From Oscillospiraceae bacterium (lineage in GTDB: Bacteria; Bacillota; Clostridia; Oscillospirales; Oscillospiraceae): a stretch of DNA of 61,077 nt. The notes under the pieces are model-generated. The model was not told the origin of the DNA, did no database searches, and worked only from the letters and a program-made list of their open reading frames with translations. Location of the stretch: positions 1-61,077 of the forward strand of contig CACYXE010000011.1 of the NCBI GenBank assembly GCA_902778275.1. The letters are read 5' to 3'. Below are positions 9,398 to 56,236 of the stretch, one piece after another (position 1 is the first letter of the stretch; every line of letters starts with the position of its first letter). The position numbers and the translations under genes were made by a program.

Positions 9398-9422
9398 GTT
9401 TACATAATTTTATTTACATAAT
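9398..9422. repeat. Tandem GTTTACATAAT / ATTTACATAAT words
   Basis: Two copies of the word TTTACATAAT stand 15 bp apart directly after the rlmI-like stop codon. The first, 9398-9407, is an exact copy of the recurrent word TTATGTAAAC (read on the minus strand) found nine other times in the window. The second differs at one base. Confidence 0.7.
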
Positions 9423-13540: not shown

Positions 13541-16500
13541 TTACAAAGATTTCATATTGTGTTCCGGCGGTATCGGGCCGCCGTCATAGGGAGACCCGTC
13601 TACCGTGATGGCTGTCCCATCCACTGCGATCGCATGCTCCGTACCTTGCGGATCGGTCCAACGGGCATTGTAGTGCTCCAGCCTTGGATGGATATACAGA
13701 CGCCCGTTCCGCAGCTCCAGGCCCAACAACTCCCGGGTGACGGCCCGGAAATACCAGCCGGCGGAGCCGGTATACCAGGTCCAGCCCGCCATGCCCTCGC
13801 AGCCCGGTGCGGTATAGACGTCTGCCGCCAACACGAAGGGCTCCGCCTCATAGCGGGCAGGATCGTGGTTCTCCGGCAGCAGCATTCGCAGCAGCCGCAG
13901 CCCCTCCGCCCTTCGGCCCCGGCGCAGACAGGCCATGGCCAGCCAAATGGCGCCGTGGGTGTACTGTCCGCCGTTTTCCCGAAAGCCCTCGCCGTAACCG
14001 GCGATATACCCGGGGTAGGGCTCATCCTGCCCGAAGGGCGGACCAAAGAGGCGGATGAGGCCATGCTCTCCATCCACCAGACGTTCCAGCGCGGCATCCA
14101 GCGCGGCATCGGCATGGGCGGCCTCTTCGCCGCAGAAGACGGCCCAGGCCTGGGGCAGGAGATCGATCCGTTCTTCCCCGCCCAGAGGGCTGCCGTCCGA
14201 CCGGTAAGCCCTTCGGTACCAACGGCCGTTCCACGCACGCTCAGCCGCCTGAGCGGCCCGGTCGGCGCAGTCGCGGTAGCGCTGCGTATTCGGTTTACAT
14301 AATTTTTCAAGCAGAGAGGCGAAGCGCCCGGCGCAGTAGGTCAGGAACCAGGCCAGCCACACGCTCTCGCCGCCTGCCGCGTCCAGCCCGTCGTTCCAGT
14401 CCCCGCTGCCCATATAAGGCAGATCATGGGGACCGAAACCCCGATCCATGCAGCGGTCCAGCGCCGCCTTTGCGTGGTAGAGGACGGAGGCGCTGGCCTC
14501 AGAGATCTCCGGACGCTCATAGCGGTCCCACTCGTCGTCTGCCAGCGGCATGGAGTTTACATAACTTATTTCTTCTTCACAGAGCGCCAGGTCTCCTGTG
14601 GCGTCCACATATTCACACAGCGCCCAGGGCAGCCACAGCAGATCGTCGCTGCAGCGGCTGCGAATACCCCGGTCTCCCTCCGGGTGGGGATGCCACCAGT
14701 GCATCACATCGCCCTCCACGTACTGGTGGCGGCAGCAGTCCAGGATCTGCCGCCGGGCAAAACCTGGATCCAGGAGGAGCAGATTCACCGCGTCCTGCAG
14801 CTGGTCGCGAAAGCCTATGGCGCCGCCGCTCTGGTAGAGGCTGCTGCGGCCCCACAGGCGGCAGGCGACGGCCTGATAGGCGGCCCAGCCGTTGAGATAG
14901 TGGTCCATGGCCCCATCGCCGCTGCTGATCTGCAGCCGGCATAGCAGGCTTGCCCAGTACCGCCTGGTTTCCGCAAAGGCCTCCATGGCCCGGTCAAGTT
15001 TACATAATTCTTTCAGCTCGCTCTCTGAGCAGCTGCCGCATACCAGAATGGAGGTTTCCCGGGCCGTCAACTGCAGGTCCATGGCCGGGGGCGTGAAGGC
15101 CGTCCGGCAGGTAGAAGGGCAGTTGGCGGCGGCAAGCAGTGTGGTCCCCGGCAGATAGGCCTCCGGATTCTCCGCCCGGAACAGGCCGCCGGAGAAGGAG
15201 ACGCGCAGGGAGGCCGCGTCGGCAGCGCCCAGCAGGGGCCGCAGGCACCAGTGGAGAGGCAGCCCCGCGGCACCCTCCACCACCAGGATGCGAACATTGG
15301 TATTCATGGGGATGAAAACACGGGTACGGATCTGGCGGCCGGCGATCTCCTTTTCCCAGCAGGCATAGCCGGGTCCATAATGGACACGGCAGGGAAAGCC
15401 GTCGTTGGCGGCAAAAAGACTGACGTTTTGGCCGTCCGCCTCCAGCCACAGCAGCTCCGCGCCCTGAGTGCTGCGGGCGTCTGTGTCCGGTGGGATCAAG
15501 CGCATTTCCCGGGCGTTTTCCAGCCACAGGCCGCTCATGCCGCAGTCGCTTACGATGGCGCCCAGAGAACCGTTGCTCAGCATCTGCTGCCAGGCGCGGG
15601 AGGGTAGCGATAAGTTTACATAATATTCAAACTCCGATCCGTGCCAGCGGTATTCCGGCGCTGTGCCTTTGCCCCGCGGCTGGCCGAGAATTGGGAGCCG
15701 AAGCGGTCTGCTGACCCGGGGGAGTTCCCCGATACAAAGCGCGGCAAGACCCTTTACGGTTTCACCGGCCGAGGGGGGTACAAAGTGTACGCCTGCGCTG
15801 CTGCCCAGCAGAGCGTCCAGTCCCAACACGGCCAGGGCGTCGCCGATCTGCCGGTGGAAGGGCTGGCGGTATTCACCCAGCTCGTCGGTCAGATAGACCA
15901 GATCCGCCTCCAGCCCGCAGCTTTTCAGCAGGCAGAAACGGCGCAGCAGGGGCAGAGCCTCCGCGGCCTTGGCCTCGCAGCAGATCAGCGGATGGTCACC
16001 CGAGATCCCATAGGGCCAGAGCTCACGGCGGGGCGGAGCGCCATACAGAGGGCGCAGCAGAGATGGCAGCATGGCCATAGCCTCACCGATCTCCGAAGGC
16101 GGCAGATCCAGATGGGTCGCCACAGCGCTGACAAGGCTGCCTCGCTGGGGAGATGCCAGAATGCGCCGGGCGTCGTCCAGTGCGGTTTTGGCATCCCAGC
16201 CCACACAGAGGGAAAAGCGGGCGGTTTCCGTCTGTCCTGCGGCCAGGCTGAGTTTTACCCGCGCGGATATCCGGGGATCGGGCAGTCCGGTCTCACCGCC
16301 GGGCGCGGTCTCAAAAACCACATCCCGGTCGCAGGCCAGGCACAGCCACAGCTCCTTGTGCTCGCCCCTTCGCAGCCGACGGAGTAGCAGGGCATTCTTC
16401 TCCCGCTTGGCGGCGATACCCAGGCGCCAATAGGCCGGATGGTTTACATAATCATTATAATCCGACAAGATGGGGGACAGGTCCAGACGGAGGGAAAAGG

Positions 16501-19500
16501 TCCCGGCCTTTGCCGGAATGAGGCGAATCGAGCGCAGCTCACCCAGTGCGCCGGCCGCGGCACAGACAGACAGAGAGCATTTGGTCCCGTCCGCATCTGC
16601 TTCCCAGGTGCAGGCGTCTTCTGACAGTTCCCAGCCCTGCGGCTGCGGGACCGGAGCCAGGGGAAAGGATTTTTCACCGGTCTCCAGGCTCAGCCGCAGG
16701 CCCTCATCCTGTTCCAAATCACGGGGGGAGCCATAGACGCTCAGCTGTCCGCAGCGGGCAAAGCAGTCGCCGCGATTAGTTGACATAATATTGTATGCGC
16801 CATTGGACAGCAGACAGGCGCGTTCCGTCTGATCCTGGGGGCCGCCGCGCAGCTGCCAGCGGTCCCCAAATCGCCGCTCCGGCTTTTCCGGAACGGGCCG
16901 CAGATCCCGGCGGATCACCGCGCCGGAGTCCGGCAGCCGTTCCTGCAGCAGCAGCGCGTAGGCGGCCATGTCGCTGCGGGAGAAAAAGCGCCGCTGTATG
17001 CTCCCGCCGCAGACGGCGTTGGCCGCCGCCAGGATGCTCATGCCCACATGGTGCGCCATGTAGCATTGGACTTTTTCTCCCTCGTCCCGGCGGCAGCGGG
17101 AGGGGCTGAAATCCAGAGCTTCCATGTAGCCGAAGCGGCCCACGGCGCCGAAACGCTCCAGACGGCGCAGGTTGCGCACCGCGCCGTGGGCATCCACGGC
17201 CAGCGCCAGAAAGCTGCTGTAGGGGGAGACCACCATGTCTGCGTCCTGCCCCCGCTTCAGACTCAGGGCGCTGCAGCCGTTGGCCTTGTAGCGGTAGCTG
17301 AGCATGGGGTCCAGCGCGAAGAAGGCGCTCTCGGAGATGCCCCAGGGCTTGCCGGCAAAGACCCTGCGTTTTTGCACATACAGGCAAAAGCGGCTGCTCT
17401 CATAGAGCAGGCTGCCCCGGCACAGGGGGAGAAACAAGGCCGGCATCAAATACTCGAACATGGTGCCGGTCCAGCTGGCGAGCCCCCGGTAGCCGTCCTT
17501 CTGCAGCTGGGCACGGCTGAGCCGACGCCAATGCTTTTCCGGAACGTCGCCTTTGGCGATGGCCAGATAACTGGTGAGCATGGCCTCGCTGGCCATCAGG
17601 TCGTACCAGCCGCCGGCGCCGTGTTCCGCCTCGGTGTCGTAACAGATATAGAACAAAGCCCGGTCCGGATCATACAGAGGACTGAAATCCATGGGCGCCA
17701 TCAGCGCCTCTGTCCGCCGGGCAAGCTCAGTCTCATTCAGTTCCTCCAGCGCCTGCTGGACAGTGAGCAGCGAAGCATAGAGGTTTCCGCTGTCTACGGT
17801 GGATATGAAGGCCGGGGAGAGGGGCAGGAGGCTCCGGGTATCATACCAATTGTAAAAATGGCCCCGGTGCCGGGGCATGCGCTCCAGACTGTCCAGCATA
17901 CGGGCGACCGCCGTCAGCGCGTCCCGGGCGGGCAGCAGCTCCAGATCCACTGCGGCCATAAAGGAACAGAGGGCCATGCCGATATTGGTGGGCGAGGTCC
18001 GGTGGGCCAGCCCCACCGGCGGCTGCTCCTGAAAATTGTCCGGGGGCAGGTAGTTGTCCTCCGAGGTGCAGAAACTCAGATAATAGCGCAGGCTCTCTCC
18101 TGCGGCGGCGCACAGAAAGCTGCGTTCCGCGGCGCTCAGCGGCGTATCCCTGTGGGCAGGCAGCGCCAGAGCCGCGGCGGTCAGGGGCGCGAGCAGCCAC
18201 AGCAGTCCCGCCGAGCGGCCGATGATGACCGGGGAGAAGAGCAAAAGCAACAGTCCCAGCAGCATGCTCTGCCACATGGCCTTCAGGTGGGCCGACAGGC
18301 CGCTGCCGCTCTGTTCGCTCTGTGCGGCGGTCTGCCATTGGAGCAGATGCCTGTGGGAGACCAGCATCCTCCACAGCGCCAGTACGATGGCAGAGAGGCA
18401 GATCCAGGCTTCGTAGGGCAGCAGCCACAGGCGGATGAAGGTCTGCACGATGGCACCGCCCACACCGGTGAGCAGCCGGGTATAGCGGCGCAGCCGGATA
18501 CTCTGCCGCTGCCGCAGACCGCCCTCGGCCAGACTGATCAGCAGCCTGCTCAGCAGGGCCAGCAGCGCCGCCCCGGCGGACACCGCCAGACCGCTGCCCG
18601 GCAGGAAAAAACCAGCCATAATGGCAAGCAGGGTCATGGGCGAAAGCAGACTGCGGCGGAGATTGTCGAACAGCCGCCAGCGGTCAATGGGAGAGAAATC
18701 CCGGCAGAACACCCAGGGCAGGTTCTGCCAATCTCCCCGGACCCAGCGGTGCATGCGCCGGTAATAGGCCAGGGGCTTTGCGGGAAAAGTGTCGGAAAAG
18801 GACACGTCACCAAGAAATCCGCCGTGCAGGCAGGCCCCCTCCAGCGCGTCGTGGGACAGGACCCTGCCTGCGGGGATGTGGGCCTCAGAGCACTGGAGCA
18901 GGGCGCGGACGTCCAGGATACCCTTTCCCGCGAAGCCGGAGGAACCGAAGGCGTCCATGTACAGCTCGCTGCACAGTCCCCCGTAGGGGTCGCTGCCTCC
19001 GGCCCCTGCGAAGATCAGGGCGAAATCCGTAGAGTTGGCGCTGGCAAGCTCCGTGTCCATACGGGGCTGCAGCACGGCGCAGCCCCTGGTGACCACCCGC
19101 TTTTTCGGGTCGATGTGAGGCTTGGCCAGCGGGTGGAGCATGGCTCCGATCAGTTCCCCGGCTGCGCCGGGATAGAGCCGGGTGTCGCTGTCCAGGGTGA
19201 GGATATAGCGCGTTCCCGCAAGCTGTGTGCGGTTTCCGGTGAAATGCAGCGCCGAGGATCGGCCGCAGAGCAGCCGGGCCAGCTCCAGAAGGGCGCCCCG
19301 CTTGCGGTCCTGCCCGGACCAGAGCTCCCCGTCAAAGCTGCGCTCCCGGGTAAACAGATAAAAGCCGCCGCCGTATTTTCGGTTCAGGTCCTCGACAGCC
19401 CGGCAGGCGGCGGACAGGATCGGCGCATCCTCCTCCGTGTGGGCGCTGCCCGCCGCGGGCAGGTCTGCCAGCAGGCCGAAGGACAGGTTTTTCCCCTCCC

Positions 19501-20617
19501 GGCGGCTGGCAAGGCGCAGCTGCTCCAGGCGAGAGGCCTGCGCGGAGGCGGTCTCGGGATCGGTCAGCAGGGCGGAGACCACGCAGAGGGTCCGCCCCTC
19601 GGCGGGCACACCCTTTTCCATATCCATCCGCGGCAGCCGCCTGGGCGGCACCAGATGCAGCAGCAGAAAGTCCAGCAGAGCCTTCACTAGCTCCGACACC
19701 GGCAGCAAAAGCAGAAAAGCCGCCGCGGCGCTGTGATAGACGAAAGCGGGCAGCAGCGAGAAAAACAGACTGAGCAGCAGATTGGCCGCAATATAGAGCG
19801 CGGCACCGCGATGCTTCTTTTCTTCAAACAGGTAAAAGCCCACATGCCGGGCTTCGACCTTGGCGGTCTTGATCAGACGCCGGGCATAGCTGTGCTCCTC
19901 CATGCCCAGCCGTGCGGCCAGGCGCTCCACCTGCCGCAGATAGGCCTGCTGAGTCTCCCGGTCCATGCGGGGATAGTCTCCGCTGGGATCGGCGGAAAGA
20001 ATGGCTCCGGTCACATCCACGCCGCGCAGAAGCTTCTCCGTATCCAGCACGGAGAACAGCCGCAGGGTACCGAACAGGGCCTCCAGGGCGGCGGCGTGGG
20101 TCTCGGTCTCGGCGGCAAAGGGCAGCTTGCGGCAGACAGACGCGATCTCGGCGATGACGGCGGCCCGAAGGGCGGCGGGAAACAGATCCAGTTCGGAGCG
20201 GCGCAGCACGGTCACAGACTGAAAGCCGTCCAGAAAACGCTTGCAGCGCTCCTCCGTGACCCGGCCCTGGCCGGACTCCACCAGGGACCTGCAGAGACAG
20301 AGGATCAGCAGCCCCTCGTCGCAAAGCCGCAGCCGCTTCGCCTGAGACAGAGCCGAGCAGGTGGCGGCGTACTCCCGCTGCACCATATAGTAGTTGTCCA
20401 GCAGCCACTCACAGGCGGCGGGGGGCTTGGGCAGAGATCCGTAGCGCCGCCGCACCGCCTCATGGGTCCGGCGGATGTCCCCCAGATGGCGGCGCAGGAG
20501 CTTTGCGCCGCTGTGCCCGCTGGCGATTTGCGTGGGGCGCAGCAGCCTGGCGGTGGAGGCGGCATAGTCATAAAGCCCTTCGTCGGAAATAAAAAGACCG
20601 GTATTGATCATGTCCAT
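13541..20617 (-). CDS. Cyclic beta-1,2-glucan synthase-like glycosyltransferase/phosphorylase
   Basis: A very large membrane protein of 2358 residues related to NdvB/Cgs, which makes beta-1,2-glucans from UDP-glucose and cyclises them. Order of parts: helical N-terminal region (1-270); membrane helices (about 275-330); GT84 transferase region with the LTLDSDTRLYPG donor-site motif near 476; further membrane helices (about 660-850); glycoamylase-like domain (about 900-1200); and a GH94 phosphorylase module (about 1230-2358) with the catalytic GSGDWNDG motif near 2072. The start has GGGAGA about 6 nt upstream; a TTG start at 20668 is less likely. It probably acts alone. The gene contains six copies of the TTATGTMAAC word described in the findings. 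Confidence 0.88.
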   Translation of the reverse strand: MDMINTGLFISDEGLYDYAASTARLLRPTQIASGHSGAKLLRRHLGDIRRTHEAVRRRYGSLPKPPAACEWLLDNYYMVQREYAATCSALSQAKRLRLCDEGLLILCLCRSLVESGQGRVTEERCKRFLDGFQSVTVLRRSELDLFPAALRAAVIAEIASVCRKLPFAAETETHAAALEALFGTLRLFSVLDTEKLLRGVDVTGAILSADPSGDYPRMDRETQQAYLRQVERLAARLGMEEHSYARRLIKTAKVEARHVGFYLFEEKKHRGAALYIAANLLLSLFFSLLPAFVYHSAAAAFLLLLPVSELVKALLDFLLLHLVPPRRLPRMDMEKGVPAEGRTLCVVSALLTDPETASAQASRLEQLRLASRREGKNLSFGLLADLPAAGSAHTEEDAPILSAACRAVEDLNRKYGGGFYLFTRERSFDGELWSGQDRKRGALLELARLLCGRSSALHFTGNRTQLAGTRYILTLDSDTRLYPGAAGELIGAMLHPLAKPHIDPKKRVVTRGCAVLQPRMDTELASANSTDFALIFAGAGGSDPYGGLCSELYMDAFGSSGFAGKGILDVRALLQCSEAHIPAGRVLSHDALEGACLHGGFLGDVSFSDTFPAKPLAYYRRMHRWVRGDWQNLPWVFCRDFSPIDRWRLFDNLRRSLLSPMTLLAIMAGFFLPGSGLAVSAGAALLALLSRLLISLAEGGLRQRQSIRLRRYTRLLTGVGGAIVQTFIRLWLLPYEAWICLSAIVLALWRMLVSHRHLLQWQTAAQSEQSGSGLSAHLKAMWQSMLLGLLLLLFSPVIIGRSAGLLWLLAPLTAAALALPAHRDTPLSAAERSFLCAAAGESLRYYLSFCTSEDNYLPPDNFQEQPPVGLAHRTSPTNIGMALCSFMAAVDLELLPARDALTAVARMLDSLERMPRHRGHFYNWYDTRSLLPLSPAFISTVDSGNLYASLLTVQQALEELNETELARRTEALMAPMDFSPLYDPDRALFYICYDTEAEHGAGGWYDLMASEAMLTSYLAIAKGDVPEKHWRRLSRAQLQKDGYRGLASWTGTMFEYLMPALFLPLCRGSLLYESSRFCLYVQKRRVFAGKPWGISESAFFALDPMLSYRYKANGCSALSLKRGQDADMVVSPYSSFLALAVDAHGAVRNLRRLERFGAVGRFGYMEALDFSPSRCRRDEGEKVQCYMAHHVGMSILAAANAVCGGSIQRRFFSRSDMAAYALLLQERLPDSGAVIRRDLRPVPEKPERRFGDRWQLRGGPQDQTERACLLSNGAYNIMSTNRGDCFARCGQLSVYGSPRDLEQDEGLRLSLETGEKSFPLAPVPQPQGWELSEDACTWEADADGTKCSLSVCAAAGALGELRSIRLIPAKAGTFSLRLDLSPILSDYNDYVNHPAYWRLGIAAKREKNALLLRRLRRGEHKELWLCLACDRDVVFETAPGGETGLPDPRISARVKLSLAAGQTETARFSLCVGWDAKTALDDARRILASPQRGSLVSAVATHLDLPPSEIGEAMAMLPSLLRPLYGAPPRRELWPYGISGDHPLICCEAKAAEALPLLRRFCLLKSCGLEADLVYLTDELGEYRQPFHRQIGDALAVLGLDALLGSSAGVHFVPPSAGETVKGLAALCIGELPRVSRPLRLPILGQPRGKGTAPEYRWHGSEFEYYVNLSLPSRAWQQMLSNGSLGAIVSDCGMSGLWLENAREMRLIPPDTDARSTQGAELLWLEADGQNVSLFAANDGFPCRVHYGPGYACWEKEIAGRQIRTRVFIPMNTNVRILVVEGAAGLPLHWCLRPLLGAADAASLRVSFSGGLFRAENPEAYLPGTTLLAAANCPSTCRTAFTPPAMDLQLTARETSILVCGSCSESELKELCKLDRAMEAFAETRRYWASLLCRLQISSGDGAMDHYLNGWAAYQAVACRLWGRSSLYQSGGAIGFRDQLQDAVNLLLLDPGFARRQILDCCRHQYVEGDVMHWWHPHPEGDRGIRSRCSDDLLWLPWALCEYVDATGDLALCEEEISYVNSMPLADDEWDRYERPEISEASASVLYHAKAALDRCMDRGFGPHDLPYMGSGDWNDGLDAAGGESVWLAWFLTYCAGRFASLLEKLCKPNTQRYRDCADRAAQAAERAWNGRWYRRAYRSDGSPLGGEERIDLLPQAWAVFCGEEAAHADAALDAALERLVDGEHGLIRLFGPPFGQDEPYPGYIAGYGEGFRENGGQYTHGAIWLAMACLRRGRRAEGLRLLRMLLPENHDPARYEAEPFVLAADVYTAPGCEGMAGWTWYTGSAGWYFRAVTRELLGLELRNGRLYIHPRLEHYNARWTDPQGTEHAIAVDGTAITVDGSPYDGGPIPPEHNMKSL
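14293..16788 (-). repeat. Six copies of TTATGTMAAC inside the glucan synthase gene
   Basis: Copies, all on the coding strand: 14293-14302, 14555-14564, 14998-15007, 15614-15623, 16442-16451 (all TTATGTAAAC) and 16779-16788 (TTATGTCAAC). Codon phase differs: Leu-Cys-Lys at the first and third, Tyr-Val-Asn at the second, fourth and fifth, Ile-Met-Ser-Thr at the sixth. None occurs in the remaining 3.8 kb of the gene upstream. Confidence 0.8.
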
Positions 20618-25241: not shown

Positions 25242-25730
25242 ATGGAAAAGCAAGCATTTATTGAAGCCGGACGGATCACCAATACCCACGGCGTGGCCGG
25301 TGAGGTAAAGATCGAGGTCTGGCTGGACAGTCCGGAGTTCATGAAGCGCTTTAAACGCATCTATATCGACGGCAGGCCCTGTGTGCTGCGCTCGGCCCGG
25401 GTACACAAGCAGTTTCTGCTATGCTCCCTGGAGGGTGTGGGCGATGTGAACGCTGCCATGGCGCTGAAGGGGAAGACTGTGTTCATCGCTAGGGAGGATG
25501 CAAAGCTCCCCGCCGGGACCTATTTCCTCCAGGATCTGATCGGCGCCCGGGTGGTGGACGAGCAGGAGAGAGAGATCGGGATCCTCACCGAGGTGATGGA
25601 GCGCCCCGCCTCCAACATCTATGTGGTCAAGGGGGAGACGGAGCATCTGATCCCGGCAGTGCCGGAATTTATTATGTCAACCGATATAGAGGCGGGGCGC
25701 ATCACCGTCCGGCTGATCGAGGGGATGTGA
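25242..25730 (+). CDS. rimM: Ribosome maturation factor RimM
   Basis: RimM binds S19 and assists 30S head maturation. The 162-residue protein has the N-terminal domain starting IEAGRITNTHGVAGEVKIEV and the C-terminal PRC-barrel domain (about 95-160, ending AVPEFI...AGRITVRLIEGM). The ATG at 25242 has GGGAGA about 10 nt upstream; a longer in-frame frame from 25170 would overlap the promoter and is unlikely. The penultimate strand is encoded with a copy of the TTATGTMAAC word (25672-25681, Ile-Met-Ser-Thr). trmD starts 4 bp after its stop. Confidence 0.93.
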   Translation: MEKQAFIEAGRITNTHGVAGEVKIEVWLDSPEFMKRFKRIYIDGRPCVLRSARVHKQFLLCSLEGVGDVNAAMALKGKTVFIAREDAKLPAGTYFLQDLIGARVVDEQEREIGILTEVMERPASNIYVVKGETEHLIPAVPEFIMSTDIEAGRITVRLIEGM

Positions 25731-25734
25731 GATC

Positions 25735-27027
25735 ATGCGGATCGATATCATGACGCTGTTCCCCGATACGGTAAACGCGGTCCTCCATGAGAGTATCATC
25801 GGAAGAGCCGCAAAAAAAGGCATTGTGGAGATCAATTGCGTACAGATCCGGGACTTCACCGAGAACCGCCAGAATCAGGTGGACGATTACCCCTACGGCG
25901 GCGGCTGGGGCTGCGTGATGATGGCGCAGCCTCTGAAATCCTGTCTTGTAAATATTATGTCAACCGCAAGCGGCTTGCGCAGCCGGGTGATCTACCTCTC
26001 CCCGCAGGGGCAGCCCTACACCCAGGAGACGGCCAAGCGCCTGCAGCGGGACTACGACCATCTGGTGCTGGTCTGCGGCCATTATGAGGGCGTGGACGAG
26101 CGCTTTATCGAGGAATGCGTGGACGAGGAGATCTCGCTGGGAGACTTCGTGCTCACCGGCGGGGAGATCGCCGCCATGGCGGTGGCGGACTCGGTGTGCC
26201 GCCTGGTGCCCGGGGTGCTGTCCGACGAGCAGTGCTACATCGGGGAGAGCCATTGGGACGGCCTGCTGGAGTATCCCCAATATACCCGGCCGGAGGTCTG
26301 GGAAGGGCGGCAGGTGCCGGAAGTTCTGCTCCAGGGGGACCACGCCAAGGTCAGCCGCTGGCGGCGCAAACAGCAGCTGCAGCGGACCCGGGACAAGCGC
26401 CCCGACCTGTTTGAAAAGCTGGCGCTTACGGATCCGGAGGATCAAAAGCTGTTGGCGGAACTGCAGAGGGAGGCCGGCCGGAGAAAGCTGGACGGCGAGC
26501 TGACTTATCGGGCAGCCACGGAAGAGGATCTGGCTGAGATCCTGCGCATGGTGGACGAGTCCAGGGTCTGGCTCAAACGGCACCGCATCGACCAGTGGCA
26601 GGGGGAATATCCCTCGGCGGAGACCTTCCGGGCAGATATAGCCCTGGGAGAGTGTTTCCTGGTCTGCCATGGCGAGGAGGCCGCGGGCTTCTTCACCCTG
26701 TCCACCGCGGAGGAGGAGAGCTACGCGGGCATCACCGACGGCAAGTGGACCGAGGGGATCGCCTGCTGCGTGCTGCACCGGGCGGCGGTGGCCGAGGCCT
26801 ATCGGGGCAGCGGCCTGTCCACCCAGCTGCTGCGCTTCGTGGAGCAGCAGTGCCGCGCCTTTGGCCTGCGCTGCATCCGCACCGATACCCATAAGAACAA
26901 CAAGGTAATGCAGAATCTCCTGCGGGACAACGGCTACCGCTACCGTGGAAATCTGGTGATTGCGGCGGCTGCCGACCACGCCACGGCCCGGCGGGCCTAC
27001 GAGAAGATATTGAAGGACAAAAAATGA
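25735..27027 (+). CDS. trmD: tRNA (guanine-N1)-methyltransferase TrmD fused to a GNAT acetyltransferase
   Basis: The first 250 or so of 430 residues form a complete TrmD, the SPOUT enzyme that makes m1G37 in tRNA: MRIDIMTLFP start, YGGGWGCVM, GHYEGVDERF near 115 and SLGDFVLTGGE. From about 252 a full GNAT domain follows (YRAATEEDLAEI start, acetyl-CoA-binding EAYRGSGLSTQLL near 355, and FVEQQ...GLRCIRTDTHKNN). There is no frameshift, so this is one fused protein. The acetylation target is unknown. A TTATGTCAAC word (25955-25964) lies in a variable loop of TrmD. It overlaps rsmA by 4 bp. rplS, the usual next gene, is absent. Confidence 0.93.
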   Translation: MRIDIMTLFPDTVNAVLHESIIGRAAKKGIVEINCVQIRDFTENRQNQVDDYPYGGGWGCVMMAQPLKSCLVNIMSTASGLRSRVIYLSPQGQPYTQETAKRLQRDYDHLVLVCGHYEGVDERFIEECVDEEISLGDFVLTGGEIAAMAVADSVCRLVPGVLSDEQCYIGESHWDGLLEYPQYTRPEVWEGRQVPEVLLQGDHAKVSRWRRKQQLQRTRDKRPDLFEKLALTDPEDQKLLAELQREAGRRKLDGELTYRAATEEDLAEILRMVDESRVWLKRHRIDQWQGEYPSAETFRADIALGECFLVCHGEEAAGFFTLSTAEEESYAGITDGKWTEGIACCVLHRAAVAEAYRGSGLSTQLLRFVEQQCRAFGLRCIRTDTHKNNKVMQNLLRDNGYRYRGNLVIAAAADHATARRAYEKILKDKK

Positions 27028-36967: not shown

Positions 36968-38557
36968 CTAATCCTCCACCAGATCCATATATTCGTCGTA
37001 GGTGCACAGCCGGTCGATGATGCCGTTGTCGGTGATCTCAATGATGCGGTTGGCTACGGTCTGGGTCAGCTGGTGGTCGTGGCAGGAGAAAATGATGTTG
37101 TACTTGAAGGCTTCCAGACCGTTGTTCAGCGCGGCGATGCTCTCCAGATCCAGGTGATTGGTGGGCTGGTCCAGCACCAGGAAGTTGGCGCCGGAGAGCA
37201 TCATCCGGCTGAGCATGCAGCGGACCTTTTCGCCGCCGGAGAGGACCTTGGCGGGCTTGTACACATCGTCCCCGGAGAAGAGCATCCGCCCCAGGAAGGT
37301 GCGCAGGTAGCTCTCCCTCTTGTCCTCGGAGAACTGACGCATCCATTCGATCAGATCCTCGTCAAAGCTGTCGAAATAGGCGTTGTGGTCCTTGGGGAAA
37401 TAGGCGGGCTGGATGGAGGCGCCCCACTTGACGCTGCCGCTGTCCGGCTCCTCCTCGCCCATGAGGATCTTGAAGAGCATGGTCACGGCCAGCTCGTTCT
37501 TGCCCACCACAGCGATCTTGTCTTCTTTCCCGACGATGAAGCTGACCTTGTCCAGCAGCTTGACGCCGTCCACGGTTTTACTGACTTCCGTCACGAAAAG
37601 CCGATCCTTGCCCGGCTCCCGGTCTGCCTTGAAGCCCACCCAGGGGTAGCGGCGGCCGGAGGCGGGCAGTTCTTCCACGGTGATCTTGTCCAGCAGCTTC
37701 CGGCGGGAGGTGGCTTGCCGGGATTTGGATTTATTGGCGGAAAAACGGGCGATAAAGGTCTGCAGCTCCTGGATCTTCTGCTCGGCCTTTTTGTTCTGGT
37801 CCCGCATCAGCTTCTGGATCAGCTGGCTGCTCTCATACCAGAAATCATAGTTGCCCACGTACATTTTGATCTTGCCGTAGTCGATGTCCACGATGTGGGT
37901 GCAGACGTTGTTGAGAAAATAGCGGTCATGGCTGACCACCAGCACCGTACCCTCATAGTCCATGAGGAAATCCTCCAGCCAGACCACACTGGCCAGATCC
38001 AGGTTGTTGGTGGGCTCGTCCAGCAGCAGCACGTCCGGGTGACCGAACAGGGCCTGAGCCAGCAGGACCTTGACCTTCAGCCGGGGGTCGATGTCCCGCA
38101 TCAATTCCCCGTGCAGGGACACGTCCACACCCAGGCCCTGGAGGATACGCCCGGCGTCGCTTTCAGCCTCCCAGCCGCCCAACTCCGAGAATTCCTCCTC
38201 CAACTCAGCGGCGCGGATTCCGTCCTCGTCGGTGAAGTCCTCTTTGTCGTAGATGGCGTCCTTCTCCTTGCCGCAGTCATAGAGCCGCTGGTGGCCCATG
38301 ATCACCGTGTCCAGCACAGTGTAGTCGTCGTACAGGCTCTGGTTTTGCTTGAGCACCGACATGCGGCGCTTGGGGTCCAGCACCACCGAACCGGAGGTAG
38401 GCTCCAGTTCCCCGGAGAGGATCTTGATGAAGGTGGATTTTCCGGCACCGTTGGCGCCGATGATGCCATAGCAGTTGCCGGCGGTAAACTGCAGATCCAC
38501 CCGGCTGAACAGCACCGAGGGGCCAAACTGCATGGAGAGATCATTAACGGTTAACAT
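36968..38557 (-). CDS. ABC-F family ATPase, YbiT/YkpA-like
   Basis: A 529-residue soluble protein with two ABC ATPase domains and no membrane region, of the ABC-F class that acts on ribosomes. The first domain has Walker A GANGAGKS near 35 and Walker B LLLDEPTNNLDL near 180; its signature is degenerate (DIDPRLKVKVLLAQALF), typical of the YkpA/YbiT subgroup. The second has a divergent Walker A (GKNELAVT) and signature LSGGEKVR. It is probably a translation factor rather than an antibiotic-resistance ABC-F, but cannot be separated with certainty. AGGA lies 6 nt before the ATG at 38557. Confidence 0.9.
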   Translation of the reverse strand: MLTVNDLSMQFGPSVLFSRVDLQFTAGNCYGIIGANGAGKSTFIKILSGELEPTSGSVVLDPKRRMSVLKQNQSLYDDYTVLDTVIMGHQRLYDCGKEKDAIYDKEDFTDEDGIRAAELEEEFSELGGWEAESDAGRILQGLGVDVSLHGELMRDIDPRLKVKVLLAQALFGHPDVLLLDEPTNNLDLASVVWLEDFLMDYEGTVLVVSHDRYFLNNVCTHIVDIDYGKIKMYVGNYDFWYESSQLIQKLMRDQNKKAEQKIQELQTFIARFSANKSKSRQATSRRKLLDKITVEELPASGRRYPWVGFKADREPGKDRLFVTEVSKTVDGVKLLDKVSFIVGKEDKIAVVGKNELAVTMLFKILMGEEEPDSGSVKWGASIQPAYFPKDHNAYFDSFDEDLIEWMRQFSEDKRESYLRTFLGRMLFSGDDVYKPAKVLSGGEKVRCMLSRMMLSGANFLVLDQPTNHLDLESIAALNNGLEAFKYNIIFSCHDHQLTQTVANRIIEITDNGIIDRLCTYDEYMDLVED

Positions 38558-38723
38558 AATTCTTCCTCCCGGAGAGATTTGAGACATGGATACACAATCA
38601 TTCTATCATAAGCGGATAAAAGATGGTATAACATTTTCGGAAAATCTTCTCCCCTTTGTGCAACGCCGGGGAGGCACTTGGCGTCTTTTAGGGTGAGCGC
38701 TCATAGAACAAAGGAGGTGCCGC

Positions 38724-53501: not shown

Positions 53502-53837
53502 TCATATCACCCCCAACAGCTTCAGTGTACCCAGGACGGCGGCCAGGGTGAACAGCAGCAGCGCCCAGGGGACGCGCACCCGCGTGGACGGGAGCGCCTC
53601 ATAGGTATAGTCCCGGGCGGCCTCTCTGGCCTGGCGCAGCAGTTCCGCCTCGCCCACGCCCTCGTTGAGAAAATAATCGTCCCGCAGGATGAACACCGCT
53701 TCCCGGAAGCGGCTGTCCGGGGGCTTGACCACGATCACATTGTGCACACAGCCCTTGAGCGTCCCCCGGCGGGGCGGGCGCTGCCGGGCTTGGACCGCCT
53801 TGCCGTTCCGGTACCGGCGGCGGATCAGGGGGCTCAT
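53502..53837 (-). CDS. Small protein with C-terminal membrane anchor, linked to spoIIE
   Basis: I do not recognise a family. The 111-residue protein has a basic N-terminus (RRRYRNGKAVQARQRPPRRG), a central segment with CVHNVIVVKPPDSRFREAVF, and one C-terminal membrane helix (about 88-108). It resembles a tail-anchored membrane protein. Its ATG overlaps the spoIIE stop by 4 bp, so it is translated with SpoIIE and may act in the same process. No ribosome-binding site of its own is clear, fitting translational coupling. Confidence 0.72.
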   Translation of the reverse strand: MSPLIRRRYRNGKAVQARQRPPRRGTLKGCVHNVIVVKPPDSRFREAVFILRDDYFLNEGVGEAELLRQAREAARDYTYEALPSTRVRVPWALLLFTLAAVLGTLKLLGVI

Positions 53838-56164
53838 AGCCGCTCCTCCACGCGCACCGTGACCACGGTCATGTCGTCGGTGACACCGTAGAGCTGTTCC
53901 GCCTCCTTGAGTACCGCCCGGGCCAGGGCCTTCATGTCCTCATATTCCGTCTCCAGCATGGCCTTCAGCCAGCTGTCATCCGTATCCGCGATGACGCCGT
54001 CGGTCGCGATCACCGCCAGGGAGCCGGGGCGCAGCCGCATGCGCACGATATCCGGCGCGATCCCCTCTCCGGCGGACAAGCCTGCCGCCAGGGTCTCGCC
54101 CTTGATGCGGCGGATGCTCTTGCCGTTTTTTACATAGGAGGGGGCGGCGCCGTATTTGTAAAAGCAGGTCTCCCCACTGAACAGGTCTACACACATCAGG
54201 TCTACCGTGGCAAAGCCCCAGCCGCCCCCGCCCCGCAGCAGCATCACGGAGTTGAGGATTTTCATGGCCACGGCCGGGTCCACCCCGGAGCGAAGGAACT
54301 TTTCCAGGATGGAGATCACCTGGGCGCTGTCCCTGGCGGCCTCGTCGCCGCAGCCCATCCCGTCGGAGAGCAGGACGCAGAGCACGCCCGCGTCGGTTTT
54401 GAAATAGCTGCCCTTGTCGCCGCTGACCGTCTCGCCCCGCTTCTTCAGGGAGGCGATGCCCACGGAGACCGCCAGGGGCTCCGCTTCCAGCAGAGTCAGA
54501 CGGGAGCTGCCCTCCCGCAGCTCCTCCGGCTGGCACAGCCGTACTCCCGCCACGGCGGAGAGCTTTTCCAAATAGTCCGGCTCCTTGGTCAAGGGGGTAA
54601 GGCGGCCGCTCTCGATGACGGCGTGGAGCCTCCCGCCGCCGTCTCGGTAGACAGCCGCCTCCGCGTCGATATCCAGAGAGCGCAGATAGCGGATCAGGCG
54701 GCGCTCCACCATGGGGTCGGCGCCGTTGATGCTGCCCAGCTCGTCGGCAACCGTACCCAGGACCTGGGAGATGTCCGTGTACTGGGCCCAGGCCACGCTC
54801 CGGTTTTCCGACAGGCGGCTGCGCAGCTGCCGCCGGTAGTTGAGACCCCGCAGCTCACCGTTGACCGCCGTCACGAAGGCGGGCAGGCCGATGCACTTTT
54901 CCCGGAAGTAGCCGGGCAGGTCCTCGGCGCTCAGAGTGCCGTTTGCGATCATGGCGTGGGTGGCGTCGTTCATGGCGGAGAGCGTGTCCATGTATTCGGC
55001 GTTCCAGCAGAGGTTCTTGTTCCGGCAGCGAACACAGACCTCGTCCGCCGCCCGGTCAAAGATCCGGGCCACGTTCTCGTCGTTGTAGGGCTCCTCCACA
55101 TTGCGCCGGACGATCTCGAACAACTCGCCGTAGGCCTCGCTGAGATTTTTGACCCGGCGGGCCACGAAGCGCCGAAGGCCGGATTCCCCGCCGCCCCGAT
55201 CCATGCCCTGGAGGATCACGCCGATCCGGTTGAGCCAGGAGGAGGGGAGGACCATGAACAGCACCGAGGCGCAGAAGGTCTCGAACAGGGCGCTGATGTA
55301 GATCTCTGCATTCCAGGCGCAGACCACGGCCAGCGCCCCCGCCAGGATGAAGGATAACACGAACAGCAGCCTGCCGTGCTTGCCGAACACCCCGGAGAGC
55401 AGTCCGGAGAAAGAATAGGCCATGGCGTAGAAGGGCGCGCCCACATGGCTGATGTCCATGGCCAGGCCCAGTACCGTCCCCACGGCGGCGCCGGTGAGCA
55501 TACCGCCCTTCATGGCGGAGGTCATCACCAGCAGCAGCGCCAGAAAGCGCCCGATGGACACGGTGTCGAAGATCACGATCCGGGAAAAGGCCATCAGCGC
55601 GCAGGCGGCCAGGATCATCACCGAGACGCTGTGCCGCAGCTCGGCGGTCTCGGTACTCAGCAGCTCGTCCGTCAGCGCCGCGCGGAAGAAGTAAGTGCCG
55701 CCGAAGGCCAGCACGGTCTCCAGAAACAGGCCGGCCGCCAGGGGCGCGCCGTCCGCAGGCAGGTAGAAGCTGCCCAGAAGCCCGGTCATCAGCATAATGA
55801 GTCCGGCGGCGGTGGGCATGAAATACTCCACCCGGGAAAAGCGCAGCTCATGGAACACAAAGGAGACCGTATAGGCCAGCACCGCCGCGGCGATGTAGCG
55901 GATGCCCCACTCCAACCCGCCGCCAAGCAGGTAGCCCAGGGAGGCGCCCAGCAGAGCTGCGACCCCGGTAAGGCCGGACCCGGCGCTCGCTACCATCGCC
56001 ACGCCGAAGGGCGCCTTGTCCGCGAGGACACGGGCGCTGGACATGATGAACCCCAGCGCAAGAAAAATGCCATAGCGCGCAGCCGTCAGAAATCGTCTGT
56101 CAAATTGCCCGCTCTCCGCCGCGGAACGGATCGCGGCCAGTCTTTTTTGCCCTCCAATTGCCAT
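53834..56164 (-). CDS. spoIIE: Stage II sporulation protein E
   Basis: SpoIIE is the membrane PP2C-type phosphatase that dephosphorylates SpoIIAA in the forespore and thereby activates sigma-F. The 776-residue protein has an N-terminal membrane region with about ten helices (residues 25-290), a central linker, and a C-terminal PP2C domain with LLSDGMGCGDEA (metal and active-site motif near 590) and VIATDGVIADTDD near the end. I chose ATG 56164 because CGGAGG lies 8 nt upstream; a longer frame from 56377 has none. The leader contains a copy of TTATGTAAAC at 56185-56194. Confidence 0.92.
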   Translation of the reverse strand: MAIGGQKRLAAIRSAAESGQFDRRFLTAARYGIFLALGFIMSSARVLADKAPFGVAMVASAGSGLTGVAALLGASLGYLLGGGLEWGIRYIAAAVLAYTVSFVFHELRFSRVEYFMPTAAGLIMLMTGLLGSFYLPADGAPLAAGLFLETVLAFGGTYFFRAALTDELLSTETAELRHSVSVMILAACALMAFSRIVIFDTVSIGRFLALLLVMTSAMKGGMLTGAAVGTVLGLAMDISHVGAPFYAMAYSFSGLLSGVFGKHGRLLFVLSFILAGALAVVCAWNAEIYISALFETFCASVLFMVLPSSWLNRIGVILQGMDRGGGESGLRRFVARRVKNLSEAYGELFEIVRRNVEEPYNDENVARIFDRAADEVCVRCRNKNLCWNAEYMDTLSAMNDATHAMIANGTLSAEDLPGYFREKCIGLPAFVTAVNGELRGLNYRRQLRSRLSENRSVAWAQYTDISQVLGTVADELGSINGADPMVERRLIRYLRSLDIDAEAAVYRDGGGRLHAVIESGRLTPLTKEPDYLEKLSAVAGVRLCQPEELREGSSRLTLLEAEPLAVSVGIASLKKRGETVSGDKGSYFKTDAGVLCVLLSDGMGCGDEAARDSAQVISILEKFLRSGVDPAVAMKILNSVMLLRGGGGWGFATVDLMCVDLFSGETCFYKYGAAPSYVKNGKSIRRIKGETLAAGLSAGEGIAPDIVRMRLRPGSLAVIATDGVIADTDDSWLKAMLETEYEDMKALARAVLKEAEQLYGVTDDMTVVTVRVEERL

Positions 56165-56203
56165 GTGTGCAGCCTCCGAAGATAGTTTACATAAGATAAG
56201 ATT

Positions 56204-56236
56204 ATTATAATTATGTAATTCATAGAAAACTGTCGC
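56204..56236 (-). promoter_or_regulatory. Candidate spoIIE promoter with wide spacing
   Basis: On the minus strand, -10 TATAAT (56204-56209) lies 21 bp from GCGACA (56231-56236). On the other strand the latter reads TGTCGCT, a 5-of-7 match to the Spo0A box TGTCGAA. The wide spacer with an overlapping 0A box is the arrangement of Spo0A-activated sigma-A promoters in Bacillus. Weak evidence. Confidence 0.3.

Follow-up and report, generated by a model that had tools for sequence, protein, structure and literature searches.

A 61,077-nucleotide contig of an Oscillospiraceae bacterium (CACYXE010000011.1; hereafter the window) carries repeated copies of a ten-letter word, TTATGTMAAC, six of them inside a GH94/glucan synthase-like gene. 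The word is identical to part of the Bacillus subtilis dif site, is enriched and conserved at homologous places in related genomes, and its enrichment goes statistically with the presence of the tyrosine recombinase XerD. We propose, with a probability of about 0.7, that it is the XerD half-site of dif, used without the XerC arm as a platform in genes and at promoters.

A Sharp and Enriched Word

The sequence-only reading of the window described six exact copies between positions 14293 and 16788, all on the coding strand of the GH94 gene and at intervals of 262-828 bp, and ten exact copies in all, with well under one expected by chance. A scan bears this out: the six copies are spaced by 262, 443, 616, 828 and 337 bp, and 100 dinucleotide shuffles of the 61,077 bases yield a mean of 0.07 copies and never more than one. 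The genome-wide count, proposed as a check on the original observation, lies above its control: the source genome (G000; 2.38 Mb in 59 contigs, 84% complete) holds 39 copies vs 8 of the word read backwards, the control in all genome counts, which are given below as word/control. Two contig ends (C25:36 and C43:20593) carry an identical word with identical flanks, probably an assembly overlap, and the count may be 38 places. Hand-added over 36 genus mates, the totals are 1161 and 103; enrichment is at least fourfold in 32 of the 36, the exceptions being G001 (23/14), G011 (3/2), G020 (15/10) and G024 (29/10).

The word is also sharp. Apart from changes at position 7, each single-base variant is seen at most once in the window, and word-rich regions of four other genomes, 220 kb together, hold 91 exact copies of TTATGTHAAC, the commonest single-base variant outside position 7 being present at most three times. 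The core first described thus stands, with position 7 widened from M to H (A, C, less often T; T adds one minus-strand copy at 38550 in the window) and with flanks, ATA before and Y (T or C) after, that are preferred too, giving the full form ATA-TTATGTHAAC-Y.

Across the order, a scan of 217 genomes besides G000, each at least 95% complete, with TTATGTHAAC shows very uneven enrichment: in family f8 the counts reach 110/8, 71/7 and 83/5; some members of the source genome's own family (f1) have 74/2, 81/6 and 50/1, and others are near parity. The closest named records are metagenome bins titled Ruminococcaceae, Oscillospiraceae, Eubacteriales or Clostridia, several from rumen or gut, and one Candidatus Limivicinus. 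Within G000 the copies are clustered: this 61-kb contig has ten (Poisson p ~1e-7), eight of them within the 11.7 kb that span GH94 to trmD (p ~4e-11), both stretches having been picked after seeing the data. Another word-rich carbohydrate locus is found in G065, where a glgB-glgA-amylase-like cluster holds eight words (L304, 8599-12476).

A chance AT-rich word in coding sequence could be argued from G203, the only complete genome among the relatives inspected, where the T variant is common and enrichment is weak (26/8); the shuffled window, the genus-wide totals and the synonymous shuffles described below refute it for TTATGTMAAC, and its probability is practically nil. Sharpness would suit a restriction-modification or orphan methylation target, or the end of a mobile element. 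Methylation or restriction, a candidate of the sequence-only reading, is hardly credible for a long, asymmetric word that is enriched, not avoided, and common to most of the genus: it has nine fixed positions, one three-letter position and no palindrome, and it is conserved at homologous places across the genus and beyond. The flanks vary between copies, which speaks against this whole class of explanation.

Selection on the Genic Copies

Eight words lie in three neighboring genes, all called, as in the other genomes, by a home-made codon-usage script whose start sites are guesses:

13541..20617 (to 20668 with an upstream TTG start), minus strand: GH94/glucan synthase-like gene, 7.1 kb, host of six words; Pfam PF17167, PF06165 and PF10091 (Glyco_hydro_94, GH94 supersandwich, Glycoamylase)
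14293..14302, minus strand: word TTATGTAAAC, GH94 query codon ~2122, Leu-Cys-Lys frame; homologous copies in L082 (G018) and L163 (UBA1763)
14555..14564, minus strand: word TTATGTAAAC, codon ~2034, Tyr-Val-Asn frame; homologous copies in L083 (G012) and L163
14998..15007, minus strand: word TTATGTAAAC, codon ~1887, Leu-Cys-Lys frame; homologous copies in L082 and L163
15614..15623, minus strand: word TTATGTAAAC, codon ~1681, Tyr-Val-Asn frame; homologous copies in L082, L083, L111, L113, L121, L130, L145 and L163
16442..16451, minus strand: word TTATGTAAAC, codon ~1405, Tyr-Val-Asn frame; homologous copies in L083, L115, L130 and L145, with TTATGTTAAC in L163
16779..16788, minus strand: word TTATGTCAAC, codon ~1293, Ile-Met-Ser-Thr frame; TTATGTCAAC in L082 and TTATGTTAAC in L115, L121, L130, L145 and L163
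25242..25730, plus strand: rimM, host gene (Pfam RimM)
25672..25681, plus strand: word TTATGTCAAC near the rimM 3' end, upstream of trmD; the G065 copy lies just after rimM
25735..27027, plus strand: trmD fused to a GNAT domain, host gene (profile matches)
25955..25964, plus strand: word TTATGTCAAC, trmD codon ~75; same codon in L128 and L163/L306

A codon alignment of GH94 orthologs from 19 loci places the six copies at query codons 1293, 1405, 1681, 1887, 2034 and 2122, in all three phases. The same codons are reused in varying subsets by G018, G012 and loci of other genera with 42-47% protein identity. TTATGTAAAC would introduce a stop at codon 1293, and lineages carry TTATGTCAAC or TTATGTTAAC there. 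At places without the word, other amino acids are often found as well. When the window gene is shuffled synonymously, with protein and codon usage fixed, 3000 shuffles average 0.20 copies of TTATGTHAAC and never exceed 2, vs the six observed; for the G065 gene the mean is 0.52 and the maximum 4 vs nine observed. Among loci with two or three copies, shuffles equal the observed number in L113 and L111. Since the places fall in three codon phases and are reused in other genera, selection on the GH94 words, as judged from the alignment, acts on DNA, not protein. The original argument that protein conservation cannot explain the copies holds, and the check for conservation confined to amino acids comes out on the side of DNA-level conservation in related GH94 loci. 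The trmD copy at codon ~75 likewise recurs among 19 trmD loci, two of which are from the same genome. TrmD itself carries its C-terminal GNAT acetyltransferase domain in a single 430-aa reading frame.

An mRNA signal acting in binding, processing or pausing, also among the first candidates, has orientation in its favor: TTATGTMAAC occurs in GH94 of four of 30 genus loci and eight of 79 named loci, some of the latter probably from the same genomes as genus loci, and all 35 copies are sense, none antisense; the other genic copies in G000 are 17 sense and 4 antisense. Although G000 alone is thus sense-biased, genic copies outside GH94 in G065, G066, G068 and G126 together, counted in selected word-rich regions and loci, are 30 sense and 40 antisense, and the mRNA motif was rejected on these counts. 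Word pairs upstream of xerD, described below, also face away from that gene. The mRNA signal retains a very small probability.

Identity With the XerD Arm of dif

We take the right half of B. subtilis dif to be its XerD arm. This half matches the word with both flanks, ATA-TTATGTAAAC-T, letter for letter, in the sequence ACTTCCTAGAATATATATTATGTAAACT given in PMC3025954. The same paper lists the dif ends of E. coli (TTATGTTAAAT) and F. alni (TTATGTCAAGT), whose arms match at nine of ten letters; the tenth differs, and position 7, which varies in our word too, is T and C, respectively. Dif sites of Myxococcus and Syntrophus end in TTATGTAAACT or TTATGTAAACC, according to PMC2731167. Dif was missing from the known words compared in the sequence-only reading (DnaA, Spo0A, LexA, parS, cre); its XerD arm in B. 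subtilis is the exact match.

The word thus supplies what dif has as its XerD arm (TTATGTAAACT, as in B. subtilis) and departs from dif in other respects: it lacks a recognizable XerC arm 6 bp upstream that would complete a 28-bp site, and instead of a single copy near the terminus there are 39, in genes and at promoters. A XerD arm standing without a XerC arm is what a XerD-bound SMC-unloading site would look like. A protein-binding or DNA-translocation signal, the remaining candidate of the sequence-only reading, is in line with this.

Co-occurrence With XerD

G000 encodes XerD (335 bits, above cut-off; nearest solved structure E. coli XerD 1a0p) and SMC (above cut-off, with its neighbors in frame), the pair of proteins expected if the words are SMC-unloading sites. 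Across the order, genomes were scored as XerD-positive at 290 bits or more, the next match among the matches listed being at 248 bits, and this division is consistent with best-E values. The median log2(word/control) is 1.26 in 83 XerD-positive vs 0.26 in 134 XerD-negative genomes (Mann-Whitney p=1.3e-12), in a sample whose members are phylogenetically non-independent. The difference is also seen within the own family, f1, between 25 XerD-positive and seven XerD-negative genomes (p=4e-4). One of those seven, G259 (18/5), has no XerC-grade match either, which may reflect an assembly gap. Another member of the family, G155 (99% complete), combines no full-length SMC match and no XerD-grade match with no word enrichment (19/43).

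G011 offers a second line of evidence. This genus mate is nearly devoid of words, its GH94 words have decayed, and TTATGTCGAC stands at its spo0A. It is close to G000 by GH94 (71%) and Spo0A (77%), yet its XerD reaches only 71% identity and falls 12.7 points short of the line through 17 genus mates with XerD and Spo0A loci (residual sd 2.4; G001, G010 and G015, with no Spo0A locus available, are not on this line). Loss of XerD or SMC as the cause of its word loss was rejected, both genes being present.

The third line comes from the xerD locus, in a non-systematic selection of seven genomes of six families that were chosen because words had been seen there, with G000 besides. Two exact words 13-20 bp apart lie upstream of xerD in G126, G038, G042, G052 and G058; G203 and G054 have a single exact word there, accompanied by degenerate copies. 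Pairs and singles point away from xerD; one further copy in G042 points toward it. The gene preceding xerD is a SpoIIM match in three of eight genomes tested (G203, G038, G058); that SpoIIM also precedes xerD in the others is a guess from gene order, and the tested frame may be wrong. Together, the co-occurrence, the diverged XerD of G011 and the words upstream of xerD point to XerD as the binder, and we consider it quite probable that XerD binds these half-sites. In eight genomes (G000, G011, G018, G012, G001, G020, G065 and G066) the SMC frame measures ~1,005-1,054 aa and the model matches in separate pieces; in other genomes with a full match the frame is at least ~1,186 aa long, and the difference points to a shortened coiled coil in the eight.

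Copies at Sporulation Genes

A second set of copies lies at promoters and gene starts. Of 30 spo0A loci returned, 24 belong to the genus, and 23 of these have the word in exact form, 142-168 bp ahead of the ATG; the exception is G011. Aligned on the word, they share a near-invariant TTG that lies 17 bp, counted between the two hexamers, ahead of a near-invariant TATTAT, and the latter overlaps the word. This layout resembles a sigma-A promoter whose presumed -10 element and start point are overlaid by the word.

Three genera have the word 15-74 bp ahead of the script-called spoIIE start (G000, G065 and G126), and in G000 and G065 it is preceded by an inverted partial copy, TTACATAA, and by TATAAT. 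One word directly follows the sigE start codon in G000, and another lies upstream of spoVAD in G068; the remaining annotated neighbors of words have no evident shared theme. The window contains the spoIIE copy and two more:

53834..56164, minus strand: spoIIE (TIGR02865 371 bits, below the cut-off of 490.8; Pfam SpoIIE_N and SpoIIE above cut-off)
56185..56194, minus strand: word TTATGTAAAC, 20 bp upstream of the spoIIE start; a spoIIE-upstream word also in G065 (L305) and G126 (L239)
56211..56218, minus strand: TTACATAA, partial inverted copy upstream of the spoIIE word, TATAAT between them (sequence inspected directly); same layout in G065
9398..9407, minus strand: word TTATGTAAAC between the ends of two convergent genes; a degenerate copy, TTATGTAAAT, lies immediately upstream (scan and gene call)
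38550..38559, minus strand: TTATGTTAAC at the start codon of an ABC-F gene, a weaker T variant that may be chance

These positions raise the question of whether the word is the operator of another transcription factor, one of sporulation or the cell cycle, and is like the XerD arm only by chance. The copies at spo0A, spoIIE, sigE and spoVAD would suit such a factor, as would those upstream of xerD, behind a SpoIIM gene in the three genomes above; overlap with a presumed -10 element at spo0A is the classical position of a repressor. The likeness would, however, have to extend by accident to all ten bases and the flanks of the B. subtilis dif arm, and the factor would have to track the presence of XerD and account for the diverged XerD of G011. 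Among 13 other-family relatives without a XerD-grade match, 12 have Spo0A (the miss is G040, 55% complete), yet enrichment does not exceed about twofold in nine, and in the remaining four the counts are small (3/1, 7/1, 12/4, 1/0). Arrays inside GH94 and trmD are not operators either. An operator of this kind is an unlikely explanation.

A lineage-specific form of the Spo0A box is a narrower version of the same idea. The 0A consensus is TTTTGTCRAA, with a TGTCGAA core, and eight of its ten letters agree with the word, which stands at spo0A and spoIIE. The word has TGTHAAC in place of that core, and the canonical boxes are separate from it in the same promoters: an invariant TTCGAC, of Spo0A type, starts 15 bp after the spo0A word. 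The Spo0A-box variant was rejected on these grounds. Besides, the XerD-less relatives have Spo0A and mostly little enrichment, and G011 has an ordinary Spo0A and lost its words; the probability left to this variant is slight. Canonical TTCGACA boxes, often in tandem, are also found ~80 bp upstream of the word in most genus spo0A promoters (L065 / L071).

Weighing the Proposed XerD Half-Site

Several observations weigh against a XerD half-site, beginning with dif itself. A 28-bp dif with this arm was not found: two patterns gave scattered matches in 6/60 and 7/60 relatives and none in G000; a XerC arm sought beside 209 word contexts never exceeded 8/11 matches to a known XerC arm; and the best hit of a position-weight scan over 260 kb around the skew flip of G203 scored 10.3 of 28.1. 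The main gap is here, and it means that dif has diverged in this order or that the patterns are too narrow. G203, which starts with a dnaA-like gene recognized by eye, has a single word at the skew flip, the GC-skew maximum of this complete genome (G203:C1:1196280), which could mark an atypical dif. The words of this weakly enriched genome are not crowded at the terminus: ten of 26 lie at 518-651 kb or just below, and the flip is near 1.2 Mb.

The association with XerD is imperfect in addition to resting on related genomes. XerD-positive genomes without enrichment exist (G201 7/30, G244 15/14, G234 7/5), and 30 genomes of family f25 that lack XerD show mild enrichment (560/398). G011 retains XerD and SMC. 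The argument from its divergence is weakened because the XerD proteins of G010 and G015 are only 55% identical to that of G000 and both genomes stay enriched (28/6 and 24/3), although these may simply be distant members of the genus. G000 has no exact word upstream of xerD, and most genus GH94 loci have no words.

At spo0A, none of the six other-family loci has the exact word, G043 showing two one-mismatch copies. The promoter assignment there rests on conservation because a consensus scan called no sigma-70 site above threshold. B. subtilis xer mutants apparently lack the sporulation effect predicted by the chromosome-dimer model, according to PMC7515245; this remark is no test of an operator role in the present order, yet it gives such a role no support. 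A XerD link to the spo0A promoter is not stated in the portions of PMC7515245 or PMC9564211 at hand.

Proposed SMC Unloading and Transcription Control

Several XerD sites exist in B. subtilis. Karaboja et al. (2021) reportedly demonstrated XerD-dependent SMC unloading at the B. subtilis terminus. PMC9564211, PMC8242196 and PMC12322038 describe XerD as the SMC unloader of this species, acting near the terminus, and PMC13342612 also names it so. A literature search on XerD binding sites, SMC and Bacillus returned no matching paper, a result that makes no claim of absence from print. The shared feature is XerD as an unloader, for which arrays of XerD sites would be a natural platform; the differences are an array inside GH94 and rimM-trmD at conserved codons, and the lack of crowding at the terminus in G203.

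E. coli provides a counterpart. MatP is unrelated to XerD, and matS is palindromic, unlike the present word. Like the XerD proposed here, MatP/matS joins a sequence-specific terminus protein to an SMC-type complex on which it acts (PMC8669397).

In the mechanism that we propose, XerD (RipX in B. subtilis) would bind ATA-TTATGTHAAC-Y and, lacking a XerC partner arm, could sit on the half-site without recombining. It would do so at two types of place. The first would be in-gene arrays kept by DNA-level selection, here the six GH94 and two rimM-trmD copies; by analogy with B. subtilis, these may be platforms at which XerD unloads or stops SMC complexes, and we give SMC unloading by arrays such as GH94-trmD an even chance. 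The second would be promoters and gene starts: the presumed -10 of spo0A, the vicinity of the presumed spoIIE transcript start, the sequence after the sigE start codon and, in other families, the region upstream of xerD. Bound XerD could block RNA polymerase there and so regulate itself and sporulation entry; that the promoter copies act as operators, presumably repressing, is a tentative proposal, somewhat less probable than its opposite. The combined scheme, in which XerD has a second role as a sequence-specific regulator that represses its own operon along with spo0A, spoIIE and sigE, and arrays set the exit points of SMC, is more doubtful still; in that scheme, chromosome completion and the decision to form a spore would be linked via one recombinase.

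Implications

If the XerD half-site is the correct reading, a direct link between chromosome segregation and sporulation control would become testable at a single spo0A promoter. XerD half-sites would constitute a conserved second layer of information in protein-coding genes, visible as amino-acid choices that track a DNA word. XerD platforms could then be located by a simple search for the word, and XerD-SMC biology would reach beyond B. subtilis into a large, mostly uncultured order.

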